Made by a program: the position numbers and the translations under genes. A stretch of DNA of 5,337 nucleotides. Origin: Deltaproteobacteria bacterium. GTDB lineage: Bacteria > Desulfobacterota > DSM-4660 > Desulfatiglandales > Desulfatiglandaceae. Below are positions 2,957 through 5,037 of the stretch, piece after piece. The notes under the pieces were generated by a model. It made no database searches, was not told the origin of the DNA, and saw nothing but the letters and a program-made list of their open reading frames with translations. Location of the stretch: NCBI GenBank assembly GCA_003646995.1, contig QMLZ01000220.1:1-5337 (forward strand). The letters run 5' to 3'. How positions within the stretch are numbered: the stretch's first letter is position 1; each line of letters begins with the position of its first letter.

Positions 2957-3895
2957 ATGAAAGCAAAGGCAACGATGAAGAAATGGACGGTAATGGTCTA
3001 TATGGCAGCAGATAACAACCTGGATCGGGCTGCCTTGAAGGACATTGCAGAGATGGCAAAGGTGGGATCAACTGAAAAGGTTCACCCCGTGAAATCCCCG
3101 AAGGGGGGCAGCAAAGCTGCATTTCACGGGGTAAATATCCTTGTTCAGCTTGACAGGGAAGCAGACGAGAAAACTCGAAGGTTTTTCATCACCAAGGGCG
3201 GAGGATACTGGAAGGATTGCGTCGAGACCTTTGAGGAGACCAATACTGGTAATCCCCAGGTCCTTGAGAATTTCATGCTCTGGGCGATAGAGAAATACCC
3301 TGCCAAGAGATATTTCCTTATACTCTGGAACCACGGGGGCGGATGGTGGGAAGATCCCAGGAGACTTGCCTGTCTACCAGACAGGAGCATTGCATACGAT
3401 GATTCCTCAAATGGCGATGCTCTGGACAACGGAGAACTCAAGACTGCCCTCTCGAGCATTGCCAGCAAACTTGGAAGACCTATCGATATCCTTGGTATGG
3501 ATGCCTGTCTAATGAACATGGTGGAGGTGGCTTATCAGCTCAAGGATTGTGTGTATGTCATGGTAGGCTCGGAGGAAGAGGAACCCTTTGATGGATGGCC
3601 GTATGACAGGGTTCTCCAGGTCATCAAAAACAGACCGGGAAGACATCCCAAGACCATAGGAAAAGAGATTGTCAGGGAATACATCAAGTCTTACCAAGGC
3701 AATGGAGAGGACTTGCCCGCCAGTAGTGTGGAGGGCGTGACTCAATCTGCCATAGATCTCAGGAGAATAGATGATGTTGTGCGAAACCTGGATTGCCTCT
3801 CATGTGAGCTTATCCGGTCCATCAATGATGACTGGGTACTTGGTGCAATTACCTATTCTTGGGAGCATAGCCCGAAGTTCTTCTACAAGAACTAG
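2957..3895 (+). CDS. clostripain-family (C11) cysteine peptidase, ended early by TAG
   Basis: A cysteine peptidase of the clostripain (C11, caspase-like clan CD) family, which typically cleaves after basic residues. It starts with the family hallmark KKWTVMVYMAADNNLD. The catalytic histidine is H126 in LILWNHGGGW and the nucleophile is C184 in DILGMDACLMNMVEV; the family segment GSEEEEPFDGWPYD follows at about 202-215. No signal peptide is visible, so it is probably cytoplasmic. The frame stops at TAG 3893-3895 after 312 residues, but the same frame continues with family-like sequence to 4189; the full-length family is roughly 380-420 residues, so this copy lacks its C-terminal portion unless the TAG is read through. 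The start could also be the ATG at 2975, which has AAAGG five bases upstream, better placed than the AAGGA only two bases before 2957. Two palindromic stretches lie in frame (residues 43-58 and 138-143). Both catalytic residues are intact. Confidence 0.85.
   Translation: MKAKATMKKWTVMVYMAADNNLDRAALKDIAEMAKVGSTEKVHPVKSPKGGSKAAFHGVNILVQLDREADEKTRRFFITKGGGYWKDCVETFEETNTGNPQVLENFMLWAIEKYPAKRYFLILWNHGGGWWEDPRRLACLPDRSIAYDDSSNGDALDNGELKTALSSIASKLGRPIDILGMDACLMNMVEVAYQLKDCVYVMVGSEEEEPFDGWPYDRVLQVIKNRPGRHPKTIGKEIVREYIKSYQGNGEDLPASSVEGVTQSAIDLRRIDDVVRNLDCLSCELIRSINDDWVLGAITYSWEHSPKFFYKN
3084..3132. repeat. palindromic element inserted in frame in the peptidase gene
   Basis: Perfect 12-bp arms ACCCCGTGAAAT (3084-3095) and ATTTCACGGGGT (3121-3132) enclose two further hairpins, CCCC-GAA-GGGG (3096-3106) and GCAGC-AAA-GCTGC (3108-3120), leaving one unpaired base. 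The whole folds as a compact three-way junction. It encodes HPVKSPKGGSKAAFHG (residues 43-58) between VGSTEKV and VNILVQLDRE, which join directly in the usual family sequence, so a 48-bp insertion (16 codons) keeping the frame is the best explanation. This is comparable to Rickettsia palindromic elements, which also insert in frame in genes. Confidence 0.7.
3369..3385. repeat. perfect 17-bp palindrome inside the peptidase gene
   Basis: CCTGTCT (3369-3375), spacer ACC, AGACAGG (3379-3385). It encodes ACLPDR (residues 138-143) in the variable stretch between the catalytic-histidine segment and AYDDSS. The same type of short CCTGTCT/AGACAGG palindrome is, as I recall, repeated in some uncultured bacterial genomes, but no second copy lies in this window. 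A chance palindrome in coding sequence cannot be excluded. Confidence 0.5.
3893..3895 (+). other. in-frame TAG inside the clostripain-like gene
   Basis: The codons before and after read FFYKN-TAG-IDLYRFIKLL in one frame. In this family I recall an aromatic residue, commonly Tyr, before the xDLY-F segment, so TAG most simply arose from TAT or TAC by one change. Alternatives are suppressor or pyrrolysine readthrough, or a sequencing error. Nothing downstream resembles a readthrough signal that I can identify. Confidence 0.85.
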
Positions 3896-4189: not shown

Positions 4190-4371
4190 TGAATGGTTAA
4201 CCTCAATTTACAAGGCAGATCAATCAGGATGTGCATCGGACATTCCCGGAACAGACATATTGGCTATCCGCAGGATTGAGTTCTTTTTGCTTTCCGTCCT
4301 CTCCACGGAAAGCAAAAAATTAGCTCGGCGGACTCTGTGGCTCAAGCGAACAAAGTGAGCGGGTGTGAGAT
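4156..4371. repeat. repeat-like element A with imperfect terminal inverted repeats
   Basis: The left end reads CTCACCACGGAGACGCAGAG (4156-4175). The right part, reverse-complemented, contains CCACAGAGTCCGCCGAGC (4341-4324), an imperfect match to CCACGGAGACGCAGAGC with one gap, and its outer edge reads ATCTCACACCCGCTCAC (4371-4355), resembling CTCACCAC. A strong central-right hairpin lies at 4284-4318. Accumulated CACGGAG/CTCTGTG motifs like this are widespread in intergenic repeats of environmental bacteria. Boundaries are approximate. No transposase is encoded, so it would be MITE-like if mobile. It covers the end of the peptidase frame and most of the gap before the coiled-coil gene. Confidence 0.5.
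4284..4318. repeat. 14-bp perfect hairpin within element A
   Basis: TTTTTGCTTTCCGT (4284-4297) pairs perfectly with ACGGAAAGCAAAAA (4305-4318) around a 7-nt loop. The T run and A run are both inside the stem, so no U tract follows the stem on either strand; it is not a standard intrinsic terminator, though it could still stabilise the 3' end of the peptidase transcript. Confidence 0.75.
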
Positions 4372-4756: not shown

Positions 4757-5037
4757 TCACCACCCGTTCGTAAACTCACTCGAGGTACAGGGGACATTGA
4801 GTCAGGGGACAAGAGGAGCAGCTCTAGTGAGGATGGGCGGTAGCCTAAAAGCTACAGGGAAGTCATTGAATGGAAAAATATGCTCGCATATTTTTCACAT
4901 TGCAAGACTTCCTGTTGTCCACAATGGCGTTACATGTGAGACCGGCTGTGCCGGGTTTTAGGCGACCTATCATGCCAAAATAGAGATCTTTCTCCGTTCG
5001 CTCTGAGTCTCTAAGGAGCCAAGCGACTGGGTGGTGA
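4757..5037. repeat. MITE-like element B with terminal inverted repeats
   Basis: The ends TCACCACCCGTTCG (4757-4770) and, reverse-complemented, TCACCACCCAGTCG (5037-5024) match at 12 of 14 positions. The element of about 281 bp fills nearly all of the 312-bp gap between the coiled-coil gene and HU and has no convincing gene. Near the left end CAGGGGACA is directly repeated (4788-4796 and 4803-4811). The centre holds an elaborate fold (4839-4967). The right end shares CAAGCGA and GGGTG-TGA motifs with the right end of element A, so the two may be related. Any promoter for HU would have to lie within it or further upstream. Confidence 0.55.
4839..4967. other. three-way-junction fold within element B, possible structured RNA
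   Basis: Outer arms GGTAGCCTAAAA (4839-4850) and TTTTAGGCGACC (4956-4967) pair with one mismatch. Inside, a long hairpin spans 4854-4915: ACAGGGAAGTC pairs with GACTTCCTGT (one bulged G), a middle part pairs with one bulge, and GAAAAATATG-CTCG-CATATTTTTC (4873-4896) is a perfect 10-bp tip. A second hairpin CCGGC-TGT-GCCGG lies at 4942-4954. An alternative hairpin GTAGC-CTAAAA-GCTAC (4840-4855) has a loop complementary to TTTTAG at 4956-4961, so a switch or pseudoknot is possible. I recognise no known RNA family. Confidence 0.45.

Follow-up and report, generated by a model that had tools for sequence, protein, structure and literature searches.

The window, i.e. the whole 5,337-nt stretch of DNA analyzed, carries a peptidase gene into which a compact palindrome is inserted in frame, which raises the question of what kind of element such a protein-coding palindrome represents and how it came to lie there. 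It is likely that this insert is a non-autonomous, MITE-like copy of a mobile element that encodes a GIY-YIG nuclease and has inverted half-sites of approximately 16 nt (RYTYRCCCCGTKAAAT and variants). The locus comprises the following features:

2957..3895, plus strand: open reading frame of the host gene, a Peptidase_C11 member (clostripain family), closed by an in-frame TAG (frame and domain match)
3080..3136, no strand: whole palindromic element, two 16-nt half-sites and a 25-nt interior (sequence, folding and family flanks)
3080..3095, plus strand: left half-site GTTCACCCCGTGAAAT, matching the family half-site RYTYRCCCCGTKAAAT
3096..3107, no strand: inner hairpin 1, CCCC-GAAG-GGGG (folding)
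3108..3120, no strand: inner hairpin 2, GCAGC-AAA-GCTGC (folding)
3121..3136, minus strand: right half-site, inverted, reading ATTTCACGGGGTAAAT on the plus strand (family comparison and window sequence)
3080..3130, plus strand: in-frame insert coding for VHPVKSPKGGSKAAFHG, 51 nt, equal to the 47-nt core CCCC..GGGG plus 4 (alignment with the 120 listed homologues)
3132..3135, plus strand: TAAA flank, most likely the old target tetramer (protein alignment together with filled and empty rplR sites)

The perfect 12-bp outer stem and the two perfect inner hairpins, originally predicted over 49 nt (3084-3132), are borne out by both sequence and folding. Positions 3084-3095 (ACCCCGTGAAAT) pair with 3121-3132 (ATTTCACGGGGT), and the two hairpins follow one another between these arms, leaving no spare base at the junction. 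The fold of 3078-3138 has an MFE of -33.8 kcal/mol (z = -5.98), with none of 200 dinucleotide shuffles equally stable, and the palindrome has no match in Rfam at E-values up to 1. Outward, the stem is prolonged by GTTC / AAAT, where one C.A mismatch occurs and the last pair is G.T, so that the family half-site spans 16 nt and the window unit approximately 3080-3136; these limits are taken from the flanks of the family, in which position -6 is random. Neither a second exact half-site pair nor a GIY-YIG gene is present in the window.

The host open reading frame matches Peptidase_C11 with an E-value of 1e-53, and the insert occupies residues 42-58 of the peptidase, its placement at the nucleotide level being ambiguous by a few nt. 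Alignment with homologues gives the insert a length of 17 codons (51 nt), and the figure of 16 codons in the original prediction has to be corrected accordingly. Among the 120 homologues listed of 1940 found, the insert is present in five (P0001, P0003, P0004, P0005, and P0012), P0020 keeps a single residue at its position, and 114 have none; several peptidase homologues carry deltaproteobacterial NCBI names. P0002, 89.3% identical outside the insert region, lacks the insert, and P0004 (with insert) and P0011 (without insert) share 90.3% identity outside it. On a 34-row tree built with the insert columns omitted, five changes are needed, and the starred branches force at least three gains or losses. 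This patchy distribution fits either one gain followed by clean losses or repeated gains, the former being preferred because the insert sequences of the homologues are related. A search of the G040 phylum (395 genomes) found no relative of the peptidase at an E-value of 1e-50, so that a DNA-level empty site is lacking for the window gene, and plasmids gave no match to the peptidase DNA. The in-frame TAG at 3893-3895 is an early end; longer homologues exist (e.g., P0001, P0003, and P0004), and the window copy is therefore truncated or affected by a sequencing error.

The palindrome belongs to a dispersed protein-coding family, as had been anticipated. The arm pair CCCCGTKAAAT..ATTTMACGGGG, far from being unique in nature, was matched in at least 120 stretches of genome contigs holding 129 copies; viral contigs gave no match to two arm patterns, this one included. 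By record title, the carriers belong to Bacteroidales, Cloacimonadota, Stahlbacteria/WOR-3, Patescibacteria groups, Omnitrophota, Verrucomicrobia, Deltaproteobacteria and further groups, and almost all are MAGs. Exact copies, 1-19 per genome, were found in all 40 re-searched carriers, which were picked from the arm-pair loci themselves, and the backwards control gave none. In several carriers the same interior occurs at different places of one genome. Part of the arm conservation among the palindromes follows from the search pattern itself; the outer tetramers lie outside this pattern and read TTTA, TTCA, CTTG, CTCG or CCTG in 173 of 250 cases, usually with a purine before them and random sequence beyond. 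These recurring tetramers indicate that each palindrome end is a half-site RYTYRCCCCGTKAAAT, represented in the window by GTTCACCCCGTGAAAT on the left and ATTTCACGGGGTAAAT on the right. The left and right flanks of the copies are inverted rather than direct repeats, and no target duplication is therefore apparent. Neither the GTAG tag nor the CGTC tag occurs within 6 nt of the ends in any of the 129 copies. The interiors contain two hairpins in 48 copies, one in 69 and none in 12. The predicted three-way junction thus holds for the window copy but is not family-defining, and it was dropped as a defining trait. Clustered copies, tandem arrays and nested elements were also observed (L236 1246-1453, with a 51-nt period; L211, L215, L229, and L216).

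Nineteen of the 129 copies lie within frames open for at least 40 codons on each side. Fourteen of them read xPVK...FxG, two TPLN and three PREI, the PREI frames coming from high-GC Verrucomicrobia and being possibly spurious. All ten hosts submitted to NCBIfam match core families: L18 (rplR), EF-G (fusA), PurF (purF), YchF (ychF), DNA polymerase I (polA), ATP synthase gamma (atpG), RpoC (rpoC), RsmI (rsmI), TsaE (tsaE), and RecG (recG). Eight exceed the cut-off, while the RpoC and RecG pieces, incomplete because the fetched stretches end within them, fall below it; the RpoC, RsmI, TsaE, and RecG hosts come from regions of genomes G005 and G007. The reading-frame bias of the genic copies is explained by the presence of TAA in one frame of GTTAAAT. 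The core length is 2 mod 3 in 64 of 124 distinct interiors, against one third expected (p 3e-5, the interiors not being independent). As judged from open frames and homology, palindromic DNA would thus be read in frame within conserved genes in the manner of Rickettsia palindromic elements (RPE) with another sequence and build, in agreement with the original prediction. A further type of short insert, encoding the peptide LPTGQ(A/I)G in frame, was noticed in palindrome-bearing genes (L181, the rplR gene of G005, and L074).

Comparison of filled and empty sites shows that the insert equals the core plus 4 nt in six of nine sites assessed. For the window peptidase, where it relies on the protein alignment alone, the relation is 51 = 47 + 4. 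Among 12 genomes with a match for L18 (rplR), three are filled, one contains a shortened remnant and eight are empty (57 = 53 + 4). The RsmI gene has a single insert in G007 and G006 and two in tandem in G005 (60 = 56 + 4), and five of its relatives are empty or have 4-5 unrelated residues at the insert site. The same relation holds for a second, different insertion in YchF of L170 (54 = 50 + 4), for EF-G (fusA) of L260 with arms TCCCGTTAGA (69 = 65 + 4), and for yhcG of L366 (net insert 294 = 290 + 4). It fails in fusA of L258 (57, core 50), at the first ychF site (39, core 44) and in L325 (282, core 280), and a rule covering all inserts was accordingly abandoned. The empty peptidase homologues mostly read V-N or V-H at the TAAA flank of the window. 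Since the right TNAA fits the empty relatives both of L18 and of the window gene, the original target is probably preserved in the right flank, and the left flank is probably the addition. The rplR gene of G007 (L184) retains a shortened palindrome remnant in the L18 reading frame, which captures an intermediate stage of decay.

Members of approximately 280-290 bp with the same ends as the palindromes encode one GIY-YIG nuclease of about 84 aa. The first three members of about 290 bp were found in G005 and G006, the G006 copy containing in-frame stops. The start of the GIY-YIG frame lies just inward of the left half-site and its end, LKSYFTG-stop, within the right one. In the first gene set, both arms were present in nine of nine GIY-YIG genes ending in TG vs. 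one of 18 others (L327, ending in FTGQAS). Because the arm itself codes for the TG end, the genes were re-classed by the arm-free core; among 81 distinct GIY-YIG genes, both arms occur in 22 of 31 at 60% identity or above, in 3 of 22 at 50-60% and in none of 28 below, nine of the 31 close genes having no detectable arms. Random placement gave both arms in 16 of 2981 cases, and a stricter arm test on control ORFs in none of 1463. The left arm is the exact reverse complement of the right one in 20 of the 25 arm-bearing elements and within one base of it in 24; these elements have 12 different left-arm sequences, and their arm matching was equalled by none of 10000 permutations. Their outer tetramers fall into the five classes of the palindromes in 47 of 50 cases. 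The most frequent flank pair, TTCA on the left and TAAA on the right (11 of 25 elements), is also that of the window, and TTCACCCCGTGAAAT of the window left half-site is also the left end of the GIY-YIG elements L221 and L239. Short palindromes and the longer coding element thus have terminal inverted repeats in common, as do MITEs and their parents. Common termini and frames ending in the right repeat are in this way observed directly, as are dispersed copies, insertion in frame into core genes, and filled and empty sites.

The 25 arm-bearing elements come from Patescibacteria groups, Bacteroidota, Omnitrophota, Verrucomicrobia, Deltaproteobacteria and the phyla of G018 and G029, four of them from the phylum of the deltaproteobacterial carrier G029. 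Two elements split recognizable genes: in L366 a yhcG-type gene is divided, with PF06250 positions 2-92 upstream and 90-152 downstream, and in L325 a 23S_rRNA_IVP gene (1-45 / 49-105). Arm-bearing GIY-YIG genes were seen in 9 of 22 carriers (53 loci examined, of 123 matches). No intact small GIY-YIG gene was found in G001, G004, G035, and G019, all MAGs, with 19, 11, 8, and 3 copies of the palindrome, respectively; the search there either came back empty or gave frames of UvrC size or a single fragment below the cut-off. Around GIY-YIG genes, sister arms of the types CCCCGTTAGAG/A and TCCCGTTAGAG also occur, and there are palindromes with CCCCGTTAGA arms (L340, L346, L339, L342, and L361; G515); these findings suggest several subfamilies.

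One small GIY-YIG protein has 6344 relatives, with a TG end in 106 of the 120 listed. GIY-YIG enzymes are expected to have the two motif tyrosines, an arginine and a glutamate at the active site, and all of these are invariant in 30 aligned members. The AlphaFold model of the nuclease has a pLDDT of 84.9. No solved structure matches it at an E-value of 0.001, the best structural match being UPF0213 BH0048 (1zg2; E 0.004), with the catalytic domain of I-TevI at rank 4 (E 0.36). Plasmids and phages gave no match to the nuclease. Co-occurrence was assessed in 145 genomes of the G018 phylum, with palindromes defined by CCCCGTKARA arms and GIY-YIG relatives by an E-value of 1e-12; nine genomes have palindromes and 59 have a relative. 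The relative is present in 7 of 9 palindrome carriers vs. 52 of 136 other genomes (one-sided p 0.02; 0.05 without G588), and an arm-bearing GIY-YIG gene, counted from fetched loci, in 3 of 9 vs. 6 of 136 (p 0.01; 0.06 without G588). Six of the nine genomes of this phylum with an arm-bearing gene gave no palindrome match, and in G588 the palindrome belongs to a GIY-YIG element of the same genome, of which it forms the tail. Since p rises to the values given once G588 is removed, co-occurrence is weak support for the link.

We infer that the GIY-YIG nuclease acts as the mobilizer, and the way in which it may recognize structure, cut, and copy the element or cut it out is inferred likewise. The inverted ends, which may be extruded into a hairpin, a cruciform or a three-way junction, would be recognized by the nuclease; recognition of an extruded structure is suggested because other GIY-YIG enzymes, e.g., Slx1, cut branched DNA. 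The cut would fall beside a short YRAR-type tetramer (TAAA, TGAA, CAAG or CGAG), and a copy would be set in there, adding the core plus 4 nt. With a core of 2 mod 3 and a frame avoiding the TAA of GTTAAAT, a translated insert of the form HPVK...F[NH]GV could result, which may survive even in essential genes. The window copy would go back to an insertion next to a TRAA site in the peptidase gene of an ancestor shared by some members of the lineage. A broader interpretation, favoured slightly on balance, is that the family represents a new transposable-element superfamily, in which a stand-alone nuclease of about 84 aa would be the sole enzyme, acting on palindromic or branched ends, inserting beside a non-duplicated YRAR and seeding frame-compatible palindromes in ribosomal-protein, polymerase and elongation-factor genes of many phyla.

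Other origins of the palindromes have to be weighed against this one. The original prediction had pointed to RAYT genes, and the repeats could be of REP type, moved by a RAYT (HUH Y1) transposase, with the GIY-YIG genes merely bearing such repeats at their ends. PF01797 (RAYT) genes do occur in 17 of 20 carriers examined (101 matches), and IS200/IS605 elements likewise insert at a fixed position relative to a short sequence and leave no clear target duplication. In L124 two degraded palindromes in direct orientation flank a RAYT gene, and on contig C77 of G007 (L216) another such gene lies approximately 1.8 kb from two tandem palindromes; both arrangements were provisionally taken as chance. 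Some RAYT-gene TIRs carry GGGGWSAS according to passages of PMC3733652, loosely like GGGGTGAA. However, PF01797 was not matched in G001, G005, and G006, which have 19, 11, and 6 palindrome copies, and among the 30 RAYT loci fetched of the 101, any arm lies within the flanks in two and an inverted arm pair forms the gene's own ends in none. Together with the lack of GTAG and CGTC in the 6-nt flanks of the 129 copies, this makes mobilization by RAYT quite unlikely; it is supported neither by the carrier search nor by the fetched loci. The inverted repeats of 16 bp and the dispersed short derivatives could also be those of MITEs of an unseen DDE-type transposon, the GIY-YIG gene being cargo caught between two copies, and several carriers indeed lack a small GIY-YIG gene. 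This origin is very unlikely: visual inspection of the 25 largest clusters of proteins encoded near the copies (each of at most six loci) revealed no transposase, the inverted flanks give no sign of target duplication, and the frame of a cargo gene is not expected to end in the right repeat across several phyla.

It is unlikely, too, that we are dealing with a free-standing homing endonuclease gene of the GIY-YIG type whose dead copies have left the short palindromes as remnants that are not separately mobile. GIY-YIG nucleases are classic homing enzymes, the right repeat encodes the protein tail, so that internal deletion would leave a palindrome, and the shortened rplR remnant of G007 shows decay in frame; yet insertions in many unrelated genes and identical dispersed copies differ from single-site homing, and many interiors consist of two neat hairpins rather than pieces of a deleted gene. 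Persistence of the insert in five homologues with related sequence might be expected of an ordinary host-selected peptidase loop or RNA signal, palindromic by chance. This is hardly credible in view of the fold z-score and the lack of an Rfam match given above, the gains or losses forced on the starred branches, and the same peptide frame in unrelated proteins, and the family of copies largely refutes it.

The non-autonomous copy of a GIY-YIG-encoding element, as which the window insert is interpreted here, resembles several known systems in part. Free-standing GIY-YIG homing genes consist of a single small nuclease acting as a selfish gene, but the present elements end in palindromes, occupy many unrelated sites and are accompanied by numerous short derivatives. 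IS200/IS605 elements insert next to a short fixed sequence and have hairpins at their ends, whereas the present element has neither TnpA nor TnpB, a terminal palindrome and an unrelated enzyme. Like MITEs, the palindromes are short non-autonomous inverted-repeat derivatives of a longer element; unlike them, they show no direct target duplication, and the enzyme of the parent is no known transposase. RPE, as described in parts of PMC2229807 and PMC3733652, are Rickettsia-specific and 105-146 bp long, with a CGTC tag in RPE-4 and RPE-6. Like the present family, they are palindromic, translated in frame inside conserved genes and selfish-looking, according to passages of the same sources. The present family differs in its length of mostly 40-70 bp, its symmetric ACCCC..GGGGT ends, its occurrence in many phyla and its longer nuclease-coding relative; from the RPE families proper it is set apart by description rather than by alignment, the 129 copies having no CGTC tag within 6 nt of their ends. 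With REP/REPtron and CGTC repeats, as presented in passages of PMC3733652, it has in common short dispersed palindromes, dimers, clusters and intragenic copies, among them copies in DNA polymerase I, and with REPtrons also one small nuclease-type enzyme encoded between repeats. It differs from REP/REPtron in being symmetric, in having neither GTAG nor CGTC tag, and in its enzyme, which is GIY-YIG and not HUH Y1. Because the GTAG tag, the CGTC tag and the RAYT link all fail, the family was filed as neither RPE nor REPtron.

Protein-coding palindromes are known chiefly from Rickettsia, a Wolbachia kind and intragenic REPs also being reported in parts of PMC2229807 and PMC3733652, and for CGTC repeats, two RPE families included, passages of PMC3733652 give no known transposase. 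The present family provides such palindromes with a plausible parent and a concrete enzyme, in lineages in which they occupy such central genes as rplR, rpoC, and fusA, and suggests a poorly known type of mobile DNA that can come to lie even in essential bacterial genes. If a GIY-YIG nuclease alone does move DNA, it would be a new class of enzyme driving transposition. This could also help to explain the numerous small GIY-YIG genes, such as the relatives of one protein counted above, and the prediction, in a passage of PMC12455944, of a small GIY-YIG gene among genes donated by Patescibacteria. Among the open-licence PMC papers listed, considered by title and opening of the abstract, nothing ties GIY-YIG nucleases to dispersed palindromic repeats, and six arm strings gave, by title and among the matches listed, unrelated papers only.

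Several other features of the window were observed. After the peptidase gene, positions 4284-4318 form a second perfect hairpin of another sequence type, with 14-bp arms and a 7-nt loop (TTTTTGCTTTCCGT/ACGGAAAGCAAAAA). Positions 4757-5037 are bounded by an inverted pair, TCACCACCCGTTCG / CGACTGGGTGGTGA, 86% complementary and 281 nt end to end, which is approximately the length of a GIY-YIG element. On the minus strand, a SNF2/Helicase_C protein encoded at 3-2397 adjoins a small gene of the HTH_17 type that weakly matches AlpA, and this pair could be part of a defence or mobile island.
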